DNA of 42,877 nucleotides from an uncultured Clostridia bacterium (GTDB lineage Bacteria > Bacillota_A > Clostridia > Oscillospirales > Oscillospiraceae), in contig CASEPH010000165.1 of NCBI GenBank assembly GCA_949289625.1, positions 1 through 42,877 on the forward strand, written 5' to 3'. Made by a program: the position numbers and the translations under genes. Below the pieces are notes generated by a model. That model saw nothing but the letters and a program-made list of their open reading frames with translations, had not been told where the DNA came from and searched no databases. Numbering within the stretch: position 1 is the first letter of the stretch; each line of letters begins with the position of its first letter. Below are positions 10,359-17,414 of this stretch, in pieces.

Positions 10359-11114
10359 ATGGGAAAATTTATAGATACGCCCAATGAGGGCATGCTGGAG
10401 GGCCGCAACGCCGTTACTGAGGCGTTGAAATCCGGTCGTACCATAGATAAAGTTTTCATTGCTTCCGGTGATACCGACAGCACCCTGCGTCATATTGCCT
10501 CTTTGGCGAAGAAAAACGGTGCAGTGGTGACCTATTGTGACCGAAGGAAGCTGGATACCATGAGTCAGACTGGGGCTCATCAAGGCGTTATTGCCATGGC
10601 TTCTGCCGCGTCATATAGCTCCATTGCAGAGATTTTGGCAACGGCAGCGGACAGGGGAGAGCCGCCGCTGGTGGTCATTTGCGATGAGATAACCGATCCG
10701 CACAACTTAGGCGCAATACTTCGGACGGCGGAATGTGCCGGAGCCCATGGAGTCATCATTCCAAAGCGACGGAACGCTGGACTAACTGCGGTGGTCGCCA
10801 AAGCAGCTGCGGGAGCCCTAGAATATATGAAGGTGGCCCGGGTCACTAATCTTACTGCGGCCATGGAAGAACTCAAAGCCCGTGGCGTCTGGATCTATGG
10901 TACAGCCGCGGATGGGTCATCTTCCCTGTATCAAACGGACTTGAAAGGACCTTGTGCCATTGTGATTGGATCAGAAGGTTCCGGGATGAGTCGCCTGGTG
11001 GCGGAATCTTGTGATTTCATGGTCAGTATCCCCATGAAGGGGCAGATCAATTCTCTCAATGCTTCAAATGCCGCAGCAATTCTTCTCTATGAGGTTTTGC
11101 GGCAAAGATCGTAA
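10359..11114 (+). CDS. rlmB: 23S rRNA (guanosine-2'-O-)-methyltransferase, RlmB/TrmH family
   Basis: A 251-residue SPOUT methyltransferase. The N-terminal substrate-binding domain (about 10-90) starts with the EGRNAVTEAL motif of RlmB-type enzymes. The SPOUT core carries motif 1 DPHNLGAILRTAE with Asn116 and Arg122, motif 2 IGSEGSGMS (203-211) and motif 3 IPMKGQINSLNASNAAA (224-240), which form the SAM knot. RlmB methylates G2251 of 23S rRNA in E. coli; the same position is likely here but is inferred from family only. The gene after it starts 24 nt downstream without an intervening terminator, so rlmB heads a probable operon. Confidence 0.93.
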   Translation: MGKFIDTPNEGMLEGRNAVTEALKSGRTIDKVFIASGDTDSTLRHIASLAKKNGAVVTYCDRRKLDTMSQTGAHQGVIAMASAASYSSIAEILATAADRGEPPLVVICDEITDPHNLGAILRTAECAGAHGVIIPKRRNAGLTAVVAKAAAGALEYMKVARVTNLTAAMEELKARGVWIYGTAADGSSSLYQTDLKGPCAIVIGSEGSGMSRLVAESCDFMVSIPMKGQINSLNASNAAAILLYEVLRQRS

Positions 11115-11138
11115 AAATAACCGAAAGGCTGATTGGAA

Positions 11139-13466
11139 ATGCCCAATGACGAATCGAATTTCGATACCATGCGCCTGATTGCAGGCGCTTCTGCCTCTGA
11201 GGAGTTTTCCCTGGAAGAAATTATGGAGGAATTTTCGCCGGAAATTCAGAAACCTCCAGAAGATACGGGTGCATCTTCTGAAATTGCTCCCTTTTCGGAA
11301 GAAAAGGAAGATGCTCCTTCCCCAAAGCCGGATTCAGAACTGGAGCATGAGGCGGTACTTTTTCCGGAAGAGACAACGGATTCTGCACCGGAATTCCAAG
11401 TCCAATCAGAATCTGAAATCGCCAATGCCATTGCACAGGCGGTGGCGGCAGCGGTAGAGCCGTCCGGTCCGGAAATCATCAATGTACCAACAGATTCTTC
11501 GGAGAAGAACCCTCAGAGCAATACTGAAATAGAAGCAGAAGCGATTCCAGATAGATCTGACGCGAAACAATCTGAGGCCAGTGCACCGCACGCACCAGAA
11601 CCTCCGGAGGTTGCCTCTGGCACAAATCCTGCACAGTCGGCTTCGCATCCTACGCCAAAGCTGACGGATACGAAGGCTGAACCGACACCTATTGCCGTAC
11701 CGAATGTACATACGGCTGGGCAGACTACAGAAGTGCCTGTATCTAAGCCCGGGGCAAAGCAGAAGAAAATACCAAAAAGCAATGTCCGCGTGGGGACCAT
11801 GGAACTGCTGGGTATGATGTTTGGCGACATTCAAACCAGACAGCGACAGGATTTGCCTGGTTCCAATGCTTCTCTAAAGTCTGCAGAACAGCATCAGGCT
11901 TGGCTTTCTAAAATATGCCAAGTCATGTCACCAGTCCGATATGTAATATTACTGTTGATGGCCCTTTCACTGGCGGGGAGGAAGTATTCCTGGATGCGCT
12001 TGGGCTTTTTGGGGGGCTCTACGGGAGTTACGGTGTCATTGGTTCTGGCACTGGTTGCCATGTTGTCTTCCTGGCACTGCGTATATCGGGCTGTTAAAGA
12101 TGCCTTCTATCTTCGATTTTCCTTTGAGTCCTTGCTGCTGCTGACTACGCTTTTAAGTATGGCAGAAGCGGCGATTTATCAGAATACGCAGACGCTGTTG
12201 CCTCTGCTGGTGATGGGCTGGTGTTTTGCCGGCACAGCGGATCTTATGGCGAGCAAAGGCAAACTGCGTGCACTGCGAACAGTGATTATGGGGAAAAACA
12301 GAATTGGTGTGCGAATTGCCCGGGACAAATGGGAACACACGGACTGCATTGGAAAAGCGCCAGCCAGCACTGCTGGTTTTGTGAGACACCAGCAGATCCC
12401 GGATGCCTGGCACAGTGTATGGACAGTTTACGGAATGTTGCTTCTGATTTTGGCGCTGATTGTCAGTGCATATCTCTCTGCAAAAACAGCGGGAAGTTAT
12501 TTGACAATTTTGGTGACGCTGCTGACCGTTGCCATGCCGGTAGGCGGTGCGCTTTGCTGTGCCAGACCCTTTGAGCTTCTAAGCCGTGCCCTTGGAAATG
12601 GTGGAGCTGTTGCGGGATGGTTTGGAATGAAAGCGCTTTCCGGAAAAAAAGCCATGCTGATTTACGACAGAGACCTGTTCCCCAAAGGAACCATTACCCA
12701 TAAGGGTGTAAAAGTTTATGGAAATCAGACCCCGGAACTGCTGGTGTCCTATGGAGCATCCCTGGTGCTGCGGGCCGATAACGGGTTAAGTGAGCCATTC
12801 AGACGACTTCTCCGGGAAACCGGCGGCCAAATCTGGCATGTCAGTTATTTTCAGGTAAACGAAGGTGGGCTCTTGGGCCGGATTAACGGCGTTCTGGTGG
12901 CAGTGGGTACCTATAATTTTATGCAGCTTATGGGGGCTATGCCGCCAAGAGATGCGCCCAAGGGAGGTATCTTCATTGCACTGAATGGTTCGGTTGCCGG
13001 ATTGTTTGCCATCAAGTACCGCGTGAAATCCGGTGCTGTAAGAGGGTTTCGTCGTATTGTACGCGACAGGACGCTGACTGCGTTGGCTGCCACGAAGAAT
13101 CTGTGTGTTAATCCTGCTTTTGTTAAGAAATGGTTTCAAGTGTCGGTGGGGGCGGTCGTATGTCCCAAGATTGAGACACGGCAGAGCTTGGCCCAGCCCT
13201 CGCTATTTGCGCAGGGAACCACCTGTGGATATGTCACTGGTGACGGTATTGAGAACTATAGCCGGTTGGTTGCAGGCGCCAGAATGGGCTGTCGTATGGG
13301 AAGATGCCTTTCGGCTTTGTCTGTGCTGGGATCTATTTGCCTCTGGCTGCTGACGGTTCTTGACATTTCTGCGGGACATACCATCATCGGCGGAGCCCGA
13401 CTCCTGCTGATTCAGCTCCTGCTGTGGCTGCTGACAGAAGCGGCAGCGAGATTTTCGGTAAAATGA
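11139..13466 (+). CDS. Degenerate P-type (P1B-like) ATPase, probable pseudoenzyme
   Basis: A 775-residue protein. Residues 1-215 are acidic, Pro/Ser/Glu-rich and probably disordered; hydrophobic helices cluster at about 266-370, 428-475 and 725-765. The second half follows the order of a heavy-metal P-type ATPase, but key motifs are eroded. The CPC metal motif is MPV (466-468) in TVAMPVGGALCC. The phosphorylation motif DKTGT reads DRDLF (510-514). A nucleotide-domain-like GLLGRINGVLVAVG (577-590) remains. The hinge GDGxNDxP reads GDGIENYS (701-708). The actuator domain with TGES is almost absent: only about 55 residues (372-427) lie between the helices. Start ATG 11139 has AAAGG 10 nt upstream. 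It lies between rlmB and a YitT gene (13-nt gap). Transport activity is unlikely; a scaffolding or sensing role is conjecture. The ATPase ancestry is my reading of motif order and needs a profile search. Confidence 0.75.
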   Translation: MPNDESNFDTMRLIAGASASEEFSLEEIMEEFSPEIQKPPEDTGASSEIAPFSEEKEDAPSPKPDSELEHEAVLFPEETTDSAPEFQVQSESEIANAIAQAVAAAVEPSGPEIINVPTDSSEKNPQSNTEIEAEAIPDRSDAKQSEASAPHAPEPPEVASGTNPAQSASHPTPKLTDTKAEPTPIAVPNVHTAGQTTEVPVSKPGAKQKKIPKSNVRVGTMELLGMMFGDIQTRQRQDLPGSNASLKSAEQHQAWLSKICQVMSPVRYVILLLMALSLAGRKYSWMRLGFLGGSTGVTVSLVLALVAMLSSWHCVYRAVKDAFYLRFSFESLLLLTTLLSMAEAAIYQNTQTLLPLLVMGWCFAGTADLMASKGKLRALRTVIMGKNRIGVRIARDKWEHTDCIGKAPASTAGFVRHQQIPDAWHSVWTVYGMLLLILALIVSAYLSAKTAGSYLTILVTLLTVAMPVGGALCCARPFELLSRALGNGGAVAGWFGMKALSGKKAMLIYDRDLFPKGTITHKGVKVYGNQTPELLVSYGASLVLRADNGLSEPFRRLLRETGGQIWHVSYFQVNEGGLLGRINGVLVAVGTYNFMQLMGAMPPRDAPKGGIFIALNGSVAGLFAIKYRVKSGAVRGFRRIVRDRTLTALAATKNLCVNPAFVKKWFQVSVGAVVCPKIETRQSLAQPSLFAQGTTCGYVTGDGIENYSRLVAGARMGCRMGRCLSALSVLGSICLWLLTVLDISAGHTIIGGARLLLIQLLLWLLTEAAARFSVK

Positions 13467-14524: not shown

Positions 14525-16591
14525 ATGAGCTATACGGCTCGAGACATCAGGAACATATGCTTCATCGGACACGGTGGCGACGGAAAGACTGCTCTTGCAG
14601 AGAGCATGCTTTTTTACACAAAGGGAACGGAACGTCTTGGTAAGTCTGCCGACGGCACTACCGTCAGTGACTATGATCCTGAGGAGATCAAGAGAAAATA
14701 CTCCATTTCCACCTCCATCATTCCCATTGAATACGGACGCTCCAAGATCAATATTCTGGACACCCCCGGTTATTTCGATTTTGCCGGTGAGGTCATGCAG
14801 ACAGTGCGCGTTGTTGACGCGGGCGTGATTGTGGTTTCTGCCAAAAACGGCATCGGTGTGGGAACCGAAAAATCCTGGAAGTATCTCTATGAGAGAAAGC
14901 TTCCCAAGTTTGTCTATGTATCCAAGCTGGATGAAGAGCATGCGGATTTCTTCCAGACCTTTGAACAGCTTCGGGAGAAGTTCGGCAAAACGCTGGCGCC
15001 CATTGTAATACCCATCGTGGAGGATAATAAGACGATCGGTATTGTGGACATTATTCATAAGAATGCATTCCTGTCCGGCAAGGGCAAAACCCAGAATATT
15101 GGTGTGCCCGACAGCCTCAAGGACAAGGTTGATGAATATTACGAGTTCCTTTGTGAAGCGGTAGCGGAGACCTCCGAGGAGAATATGGAAAAATATTTTG
15201 CCGGGGAAGAGTTTACCCTGGGTGAAATCATTGCCGGAATCAATCAGGGCGTGAAGGATCTGTCCTTGGTGCCCGTGTTCTGCGGCAGTGCCATGACTGG
15301 TCTTGGCACGGAGGCCTTGATCCATGGTATTGTGGACTTTGCTCCCAACCCCATGGAAGGTTATCCCCAGGAAGCCGTTAACGAAAACGGTGAGGCCGTG
15401 GAGATTAACTGTGCGCCCGAGGAGACGCCTGTGCTGTTTGTCTTTAAGACCATTTCTGATCAGTATGGAAAGCAGTCCTACTTTAAGGTGATTTCCGGCA
15501 ACGTGACGGCGGACCTCAGCTTGGAGAACGCCAGAACCGGCGATATGGAAAAGCTGGGCCACATTTACACAGTGAAAGGCAAAAAGACCACGGAAGTCAA
15601 GCAGCTTTGCTGCGGCGACATCGGTATGGTTTCCAAGCTGGCTTCCGCTAAGACTGGCGATACCCTCTGCGTGCCGTCCCGGCCTCTGACCCTCAAGCCT
15701 ATCGAATATCCGGAACCCTGCCATTCCCGGGCAATCTTTGCCAAGGTCAAGGGGCAGGAGGAAAAGATTGCTGCCGGTCTGACCCGTCTGGCGGAGGAAG
15801 ATCTGTCCTTCACCTTGGTGAACAATCCAGAAACCAAGGAAATGGTGCTCACTGGAGCCGGCGATATTCATCTGGATGTACTTTGCTCCAAGCTCAAGAC
15901 CAAGTTCGGCGTGGACAGCGAACTCCGGGAGCCCAAGGTAGCATACCGTGAGACCATCCGGAAATCCGCTACGGTTCGTGGCCGTCACAAGAAGCAGTCC
16001 GGCGGACACGGCCAGTTCGGCGACGTCGTTATTGAGTTCTCCCCCGGTGAGACCGAGGAGTTGACCTTCGAGGAGAAGGTCGTGGGCGGCGCTGTGCCCA
16101 AGAACTTTTTCCCGGCAGTGGAAAAGGGTCTGCGGGAGTCCTGCGAAAAGGGCGTTCTGGCCGGCTCTCCTATGGTATTCCTGAAGGCCACGCTGCTGGA
16201 CGGTTCCTACCATCCTGTGGATTCCTCCGAAATGGCCTTCAAGACCGCTGCATCTTTGGCATATAAGGAAGGCATTCCCAAGGCTTCGCCTGTGATTCTG
16301 GAACCCATCGGCTCTCTGAAGGTTACCATTCCCGATGCCATGATGGGCGATATTATGGGCGACCTCAATAAGCGCCGGGGCCGTGTGATGGGGATGACAC
16401 CCAACAGTGAAGGCGACCAGGTGGTGGAGGCCGAGGTGCCTATGGCTGAGATGATGAGCTACGCCATTGATCTGCGGTCCATGACCCAGGGACGGGGCAG
16501 CTTTACCTTCCAGTTTGTACGGTATGAGGAGGCTCCCATGAGCACGCAGCAGGCCATCATTGACGCAGCCAAAGCGGATGCGGATGACTGA
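14525..16591 (+). CDS. Elongation factor G-like GTPase (EF-G-2 type)
   Basis: A 688-residue translational GTPase with the five-domain layout of EF-G. G1 is GHGGDGKT (15-22), G3 is DTPGYFDF (79-86) and G4 is SKLD; domain IV carries GRHKKQSGGHGQFGDV. Compared with canonical EF-G the G1 motif has Gly-Gly instead of the AHIDAGKT pattern, and the catalytic His that follows DxPG is Tyr. Both traits are characteristic of the EF-G-2 paralogue group known from Thermus thermophilus and many Firmicutes, rather than of the housekeeping fusA product, which normally sits in the rpsL-rpsG-fusA-tuf cluster. It presumably binds the ribosome; its physiological role is not settled. It has a strong promoter of its own and a hairpin behind it. 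Confidence 0.9.
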   Translation: MSYTARDIRNICFIGHGGDGKTALAESMLFYTKGTERLGKSADGTTVSDYDPEEIKRKYSISTSIIPIEYGRSKINILDTPGYFDFAGEVMQTVRVVDAGVIVVSAKNGIGVGTEKSWKYLYERKLPKFVYVSKLDEEHADFFQTFEQLREKFGKTLAPIVIPIVEDNKTIGIVDIIHKNAFLSGKGKTQNIGVPDSLKDKVDEYYEFLCEAVAETSEENMEKYFAGEEFTLGEIIAGINQGVKDLSLVPVFCGSAMTGLGTEALIHGIVDFAPNPMEGYPQEAVNENGEAVEINCAPEETPVLFVFKTISDQYGKQSYFKVISGNVTADLSLENARTGDMEKLGHIYTVKGKKTTEVKQLCCGDIGMVSKLASAKTGDTLCVPSRPLTLKPIEYPEPCHSRAIFAKVKGQEEKIAAGLTRLAEEDLSFTLVNNPETKEMVLTGAGDIHLDVLCSKLKTKFGVDSELREPKVAYRETIRKSATVRGRHKKQSGGHGQFGDVVIEFSPGETEELTFEEKVVGGAVPKNFFPAVEKGLRESCEKGVLAGSPMVFLKATLLDGSYHPVDSSEMAFKTAASLAYKEGIPKASPVILEPIGSLKVTIPDAMMGDIMGDLNKRRGRVMGMTPNSEGDQVVEAEVPMAEMMSYAIDLRSMTQGRGSFTFQFVRYEEAPMSTQQAIIDAAKADADD

Positions 16592-16640: not shown

Positions 16641-16664
16641 GTTTATGACCCAAGAGGATTGCTT

Positions 16665-17414
16665 ATGTCACAATTTGCACTGAAGCTATTGGCCCTTTTT
16701 ACCATGCTGGCGGACCACGCTGCGAAAATCCTTATCAGCCAAGGGGCGTTGACGCCGTGGCTTGGGATGGAACTGAACAATTTCGTCTATACCATTCTGG
16801 TTGTGATTGGACGTATGGCCTTTCCGATTTTTGCTTGGTTTGTGGCGGAGGGGTGCAGAAAGACCAACCACCCAATGCGGTATCTGGGTAGATTGGCCAT
16901 ATTTGCAGTTTTGTCAGAGATCCCGTTTCAACTGTGTTTCTATCAGTCTTTGGAGTTTGGCTGTCACAATGTGCTTTTTACGCTGCTGCTGGCAGCTGGA
17001 GCCATCCTTGGGGCAAGGGCATTGCAGCAGTGCCATGTTCCGGCACCCCTACCGCAGATCTTGACTGCAGTGATAGCGATAGCCTTAGGCTGGGTGCTGC
17101 GGACAGATTATAACGCCTGGGGCGTCGCACTGATCCTGGGGCTCTATTATATGACGACAGAACGGGGACAGCTGCTGTGGCTTGGGGTTTGGATCACTCT
17201 GTTCCAGCTGGTTTGGCACGGCTGGAATGGGAAGGCTTTCTTGTGGCTGACTGAGGATATGAGTGTTTTGGTTCTGCAGTGGATCGGGGCCATGTTCTCG
17301 GTGGCGTTTTTGGCGACTTATCGTGGAGAACGGGGTCGGGGCTGGAAATGGCTTTTTTATGTTTTTTATCCGGTTCATTTACTACTGCTGTATGGGGCAG
17401 CGCAATTACTTTGA
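16665..17414 (+). CDS. TraX family membrane protein
   Basis: A 249-residue protein with eight or so hydrophobic helices. The start MSQFALKLLALFTMLADHAAK and the segment IGRMAFPIFAWFVAEGCRKT(N) are the signature of the TraX family, named for the F-plasmid pilin acetylase but widespread as a chromosomal membrane protein in Firmicutes, where it is not tied to conjugation and is functionally unassigned. The Asp-His pair in helix 1 and the Arg in IGRMAFP are conserved in the family. The ATG at 16665 is preceded by AGAGGA. No conjugation gene is nearby. The HD-domain gene follows 23 nt after the stop. Confidence 0.88.
   Translation: MSQFALKLLALFTMLADHAAKILISQGALTPWLGMELNNFVYTILVVIGRMAFPIFAWFVAEGCRKTNHPMRYLGRLAIFAVLSEIPFQLCFYQSLEFGCHNVLFTLLLAAGAILGARALQQCHVPAPLPQILTAVIAIALGWVLRTDYNAWGVALILGLYYMTTERGQLLWLGVWITLFQLVWHGWNGKAFLWLTEDMSVLVLQWIGAMFSVAFLATYRGERGRGWKWLFYVFYPVHLLLLYGAAQLL

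Follow-up and report, generated by a model that had tools for sequence, protein, structure and literature searches.

P-type ATPases are known from textbooks as pumps, and the catalytically dead forms among them are few and disputed, as TMEM94 illustrates. The gene at positions 11139 to 13466 of the DNA analysed here (hereafter the window, a stretch of 42,877 nucleotides from an uncultured Clostridia bacterium) raises the question of what a protein does that is laid out like a P1B ATPase and carries none of the motifs of the pump. A preliminary description of the gene had taken it for a membrane pseudo-ATPase that has lost its catalytic motifs.

Gene and overall structure

The gene lies on the + strand, starts with ATG and encodes 775 residues plus the stop; an alternative TTG start at 11133 would yield 777 residues. 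The frame is fully open over the 775 codons, as had been described. It was assigned as a pseudo-P1B-ATPase gene from homologues, alignment, an AF2 model and fold comparison, and all of its parts given below are on the + strand. The protein begins with an acidic, disordered tail rich in Glu, Pro and Ala (11139..11795; about residues 1-219). The net charge of residues 1-215 is -28 and pLDDT is below 50 across most of residues 1-208, in agreement with the acidic disordered N-terminus of the preliminary description. The tail contains the motif FSLEEIMEEF (11205..11234; residues 23-32) and a second helix (11409..11453; residues 91-105), for which pLDDT was 81 in the block 91-100 and 59 in the block 101-110. 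In this helix, A95, I98, A99 and A101 are invariant in an alignment of 26 rows, composed of the window gene and 25 near homologues.

The whole-protein AF2 model (26 sequences) had a mean pLDDT of 76.9 and a pTM of 0.68, with pLDDT above 85 in most blocks from residue 240 onward. Its helices comprise leading transmembrane (TM) helices at 264-323, M1 (329-347), M2 (354-384), M3 (423-450), a broken M4 (454-472), M5 (704-745) and M6 (752-774), where the names M1 to M6 are putative and follow the helix order of the model. The P and N domains are inserted between M4 and M5 (P-N-P insertion, 486-703), as in the P-type fold. Between M2 and M3 lies a remnant of the actuator domain without TGES (12291..12404; about residues 385-422), which AF2 models as two strands plus a helix. 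In M4, MPV (12534..12542; residues 466-468) occupies the CPC metal-binding site, and in the P domain YDRDLFPKG (12663..12689; residues 509-517) occupies the site of DKTGTLTxG. The N domain (12693..13019; about residues 519-627) is followed by the second half of the P domain (13020..13247), with a degenerate TGD (TKN, 652-654) and GDGIEN (701-706), and by the final two TM helices, M5 and M6 (13248..13460; residues 704-774). MPV, GDGIEN and DRDLF (510-514) were thus found exactly where the preliminary description had placed them. The core measures 529-586 residues in 63 loci of the family. Seven members of 1178-1488 residues, considered as possible gene fusions that could reveal a function, matched no Pfam family at E<=0.01.

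Relationship to P1B ATPases

Taken singly, the protein sequence of the window copy matched no Pfam family and, by phmmer, no PDB sequence, both at E<=10; its sole NCBIfam match, to F0F1 subunit A (E=0.013), was taken as chance. Searches with the near-family profile A1 brought up CopB (E=0.0075-0.008) and, with E values of 0.4-0.8, Cu-ATPase-like proteins. Given 64 loci, profile A1 missed one (L076), which was recovered in the later neighbourhood analysis. The wide alignment A2 (55 rows) contained the window copy and 54 of the 63 loci located by A1. Its profile matched LpCopA at E=2.6e-24 and thereby settled the P1B match that A1 had left marginal. In addition, TIGR01525 matched 25 of the 55 family members, with a best value of 2.3e-14.

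The best Foldseek matches of the AF2 model were P-type structures, with TM-scores of 0.40-0.41 for 7r0g, 0.40 for KdpB in the E1 state (9zwk) and 0.36 for 4bbj (E2P). VIA scores were higher for copper ATPases in the E2P state (4bbj, 20.4; 8q75, 18.1) than in the E1 state (8q74, 13.9; 8q73, 12.8). A fixed E2-like state of the protein was considered and not adopted, since VIA ranks E2P above E1 whereas other states come out ahead by Foldseek TM-score. Both its fold and its family profile link the core to P1B ATPases, and the resemblance is therefore not due to chance. The core descends from P1B ATPases, and the P1B-like order that had been read in the second half of the protein is borne out.

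Distribution and selection

A family-level match was found in 275 of the 295 sampled genomes of one clostridial order, which we take to be Oscillospirales in GTDB nomenclature and which includes well-known gut commensals. The cut for this count was set at E<=1e-35 because the best match outside the order was 8.3e-28. The other 20 genomes gave weaker matches only (18) or none (2). Of 391 genomes sampled from the class, 17 had family-level matches (E<=5e-61), every one of them a member of the order, and the best match elsewhere was the above 8.3e-28; in a sample of 398 genomes of the phylum, the six genomes that matched at E<=1e-30 were likewise all from the order. The count of 275 is probably a lower bound, because in three genomes without a family-level match rlmB is followed by a family tail at the contig end (G027), is followed by a long acidic ORF (G173) or itself stands at a contig edge (G772). 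One family match (G024:C38:4875-6548) contains an internal TGA stop, which could reflect a sequencing error, recoding or local decay.

In a tree from one FastTree run with 13 P1B ATPases as outgroups, the family formed a single clade apart from them, with a support of 0.945 and a stem branch of 1.34. A dN/dS ratio could be computed for 34 pairs, one further pair being saturated, and it stayed below 0.47 in every one of them; the 10 pairs that share more than 90% identity had values of 0.026-0.157. The family is old, nearly universal in its order and under purifying selection. The view that the gene is selected rather than decaying is thus upheld. The preliminary description was right in seeing a membrane protein without pump chemistry; its reading as one odd gene was too narrow, because the gene belongs to a near-universal family of the order.

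Neighbouring genes

The gene for the 23S rRNA 2'-O-methyltransferase RlmB (rlmB; 10359..11114, + strand) stops 24 bases ahead of the ATG of the family gene. Its product matches the SpoU methylase family (PF00588, 8.1e-45) and the substrate-binding domain PF08032 (5e-21), and shares 39% identity with 1gz0. We found rlmB directly upstream in all 100 loci with upstream sequence, and on the same strand in all 97 loci for which 1 kb or more of it is available; three loci with less than 1 kb (L001, L042, L072) were also positive, and four (L053, L055, L069, L079) end at a contig edge. Among the 11 weakest of the 275 family-level matches, rlmB was directly upstream in eight, and the other three loci have at most 153 bases upstream. 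Given the 24-base spacing, rlmB and the family gene likely form an operon.

The linkage to rlmB is stronger than that to the other neighbours tested. An EF-G-like GTPase gene (PF03764, PF00009), which is next but one downstream in the window (14525..16591, + strand), is found no more than 1.5 kb behind the family gene in 37 of 95 loci, and FtsH is encoded divergently upstream in 24 of 104. Of the setting between rlmB and a YitT gene that had been described, the rlmB side holds throughout the family and the YitT side does not: none of the 95 loci has YitT within 1.5 kb downstream, and one has it at 1.9 kb. An earlier clustering of neighbourhoods gave rlmB, the EF-G-like gene and FtsH as recurrent clusters; it relied on a crude ORF caller, which sometimes took an antisense frame, and was superseded by the direct neighbour test. 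The window also encodes a TraX-family protein at 16659-17414 (PF05857, E=6.7e-34).

Of the 20 order genomes that lack a family-level hit, 16 were checked for rlmB, and 13 of these had no close rlmB either (best E >= 4e-24). These are G092, G115, G213, G057, G080 and eight others. The joint absence may reflect missing contigs or joint loss.

These facts raise the possibility that the protein serves the ribosome or translation together with RlmB, for instance as a membrane tether for RlmB or for large subunits under assembly. The invariant position of rlmB, in the eight weak matches with that region in view as well as in the 100 loci, speaks for such a role, as do the EF-G-like gene downstream and the 13 of 16 genomes that lack both genes, the other three being those with a tail, an acidic ORF or a contig edge behind rlmB. 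On the other hand, adjacency can reflect frozen gene order, joint absence may be no more than a missing contig in draft genomes, and the co-fold with RlmB described below gave no docked tail. We regard this role as unlikely.

The acidic tail

Where complete, the tail is about 130 to 900 residues long, and it is net acidic in 91 of 103 members. A motif with the consensus YSLEDILAEF occurs near the tail start in its strict form in 50 of the 103 tails, against 0.005 expected by shuffling, and is missing in that form from 53. A relaxed form adds 13 tails, and 40 tails have neither form. Since conserved short helical motifs on disordered tethers are typical of docking motifs, the tail motif may act as one.

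None of 690 neighbouring ORFs contained the strict motif. Searched as a DNA pattern in 98 genomes, the motif gave 20 matches in 18 genomes, compared with three for a reversed control. Twelve of the 20 (L130-L140, L147) lie in family N-termini or tail-like fragments; the eight in other ORFs (L128, L129, L141-L146) were judged by eye to be chance. RlmB was examined as a ligand of the motif by modelling it fused to the family protein. Both bodies were folded, with pLDDT above 90 in most blocks, and pLDDT at the tail motif was 40-49, which gives no support to RlmB as the ligand. Neither this co-fold nor the motif search in the 98 genomes yielded a binding partner.

Loss of the pump motifs

We compared motifs in 105 family members (the window copy and 104 loci, among them near duplicates and fragments at contig edges) with those in 13 P1B ATPases from the same class of bacteria as controls. 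DKTGT, CPC and GDGIND were present in all 13 controls, TGES or TGEP in 12 and SEHP in 10. No family member has the full set intact, and none has DKTGT at the phosphorylation site; the lone DKTGT string in the family belongs to the L177 tail. The 11 weakest of the family-level matches (E from 9e-38 to 2e-49) were re-examined; DKTGT, CPC and GDGx[ND]D are missing from all of them, and the one TGES string, in L227, is in the tail. No homologue with intact motifs was thus found in either set, and the window copy is not a recent mutant.

The phosphorylation loop aligns with that of P1B ATPases without gaps, so that DKTGTLTxG faces YDRDLFPKG in the window copy. The loss of DKTGT that had been reported is therefore real, whereas its pairing with DRDLF was one residue out of register: the column of the catalytic Asp is occupied by Y509, and D510 stands on the Lys column. 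An Asp on the Lys column is found in 63 of the 105 members, the window copy among them; 32 have an Asp on the catalytic column only, without Lys-Thr-Gly-Thr and often followed by Ala or Ser. At least one of positions 509 and 510 is Asp in 95 members and neither in 10. A divergent group (L075, L149, L152, L177 and similar loci) has the canonical-column Asp followed by Ala or Ser, in the form DAxxLFP.

What is conserved in the loop is of another kind. Position 513 is hydrophobic in all 105 members, and [FY]P follows at 514-515 in 97. A simple pattern search detected [FY]P in 5 of the 11 weakest matches, so this signature is not universal. Judged from these alignments, the loop looks like a new conserved element that replaces the motif, not like its erosion. 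The Asp of TGD is retained in 97 members and is Asn (N654) in the window copy. Since this Asp and an Asp in the loop persist in most members, some residual chemistry or metal binding is conceivable.

No CPC-type motif is present in M4; the CPC, CPH, SPC and TPC strings of the 105 members all lie outside it. The M2-M3 loop (residues 376-425) has a median length of 51 residues (45-64), compared with 127 (99-128) in the controls, so that the actuator domain with TGES is indeed nearly gone, as had been noted. TGE[SPAT] strings occur in three members, one in a tail, one in an N domain and one, TGEA of L173, in the M2-M3 loop; the last, near residue 398 in the numbering of the window copy, is perhaps a relic of TGES. 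GDGx[ND]D is absent from all 105 members, a count taken with a whole-sequence pattern because the GDG region aligns poorly between the family and P1B ATPases. Contrary to what the preliminary description had implied, GDGIEN cannot be regarded as characteristic, since G701 is unique to the window copy in the 26-row alignment, where position 702 is Asp in 12 rows and Glu in 14. In the N domain, the glycines G577 and G590 are kept in 104 and 105 members, respectively, and SEHP is absent from its site in all 105. Nucleotide binding by the family therefore looks doubtful from its sequences.

Another interpretation of the rebuilt loop is that the P domain has become a different HAD-type catalyst, such as a membrane phosphatase, with Asp510 as the nucleophile and Asp512 as the acid/base. 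HAD phosphatases use DxD, and YDRDLFP contains such a pair. Position 512 is Asp in 80 members and Glu in 13, which, together with D510 in 63 members, the widely retained Asp of TGD and the acid at 702 in all 26 near homologues, would fit this idea. However, D510 is missing in 42 members, and the 10 without an Asp at either position show that no DxD pair is conserved across the family. GDGx[ND]D is lost throughout, the window copy itself lacks the Asp of TGD, and the most conserved of the tabulated positions (513, F/Y514, P515, G577 and G590) look structural. A re-tooled enzyme thus seems distinctly unlikely.

The retained fold and TM core would also suit a non-catalytic auxiliary subunit that pairs with a genuine P-type ATPase, or with a different transporter, and modulates it. 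Order genomes contain further matches whose E-values are those of ordinary P1B pumps, for example in G015 (4.2e-25) and G014 (5.5e-24), and these could supply such a partner. Against this, no transporter is found among the annotated recurrent neighbour clusters (rlmB, the EF-G-like gene and FtsH), the smaller clusters being unannotated, and we give this explanation little weight. A decaying gene or recent mutant, which the missing motifs of the window copy might suggest, can be dismissed in view of the low dN/dS, the order-wide conservation, the signature of its own and the constant length of the core in 63 loci.

Possible role of the protein

We consider, with a rough probability of 0.58, that the family protein is a membrane scaffold or receptor without a pump cycle, as its sequences suggest. 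Far more certain than this role is that the protein does not work as a conventional pump. A P1B ATPase of the copper type would have been recruited downstream of rlmB in the ancestor of the order, the timing being that indicated by the distribution of the family. The motifs for phosphorylation, dephosphorylation, hinge function and metal binding were lost, while the fold in the membrane, the P domain and the N domain were kept, as seen in the alignment and the model. The phosphorylation loop was rebuilt into the hydrophobic-[FY]-P element that the family conserves, and the protein gained its long acidic tail, with the short helical motif in many members.

In the window copy, the Tyr on the catalytic column would preclude a standard phosphoenzyme. 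With CPC gone, metal should not pass by the known route, and the reduced actuator presumably cannot drive the pump cycle. Instead, the tail motif may capture a cytosolic partner, with the rebuilt face of the P domain as a further site of binding, and expression would be shared with rlmB. A bolder form of the proposal, which we offer only tentatively, is that the family constitutes an unnamed prokaryotic class of pseudo-P-type ATPases, encoded by a core gene of the order that may be essential, in which a former copper pump has become a membrane receptor. Through its tail motif and the rebuilt P-domain face, this receptor would couple a cytosolic process, possibly the modification of large-subunit rRNA by RlmB, to the membrane. 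The family also opens a way to study a core protein of the order that lacks annotation.

Comparison with known systems

The family differs from the P1B ATPases CopA, CopB, ZntA and ATP7B in that DKTGT, CPC, TGES, SEHP and GDGx[ND]D are absent from their sites, the actuator loop is reduced to about 51 residues (127 in P1B ATPases) and a long acidic tail is present. Among the matches listed from the open PMC literature, a collection that subscription journals are mostly outside, no paper dealt with a bacterial pseudo-P-type family or an rlmB-linked locus, and no open PMC paper contained both 'P-type ATPase' and 'pseudoenzyme'. A degenerated P-type domain occurs in PfGC beta, which, in the part of the source available, is P4-ATPase-like, fused to a cyclase and from a protist, and in these respects unlike the family (PMC6592433).

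A closer parallel is human TMEM94 (ERMA), which, like the family, has P-type architecture without TGES, as seen by cryo-EM in 2025 (PMC12134183). In that study, ATPase activity was not detected, structures were nearly identical in six conditions and a status as P-type pump was argued against, although AMPPCP was bound with micromolar affinity (PMC12134183). Its status is disputed, since a 2026 paper, in the part available, classes it among active ATPases, for Mg2+ (PMC13322241). TMEM94 is unlike the family in being eukaryotic, having ten TM helices and being closest to SPCA. It was not among the listed Foldseek and VIA matches of our model, a listing that does not exclude homology. With TMEM94 and similar pseudo-P-type proteins already described in eukaryotes (PMC12134183), the preliminary description went somewhat far in speaking of a new protein type; among the literature matches listed, no bacterial counterpart was seen. 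As a dead P-type version that is a core gene of an entire order and has a fixed neighbour, the family offers a natural experiment on what the scaffold of a pump can do without its engine.
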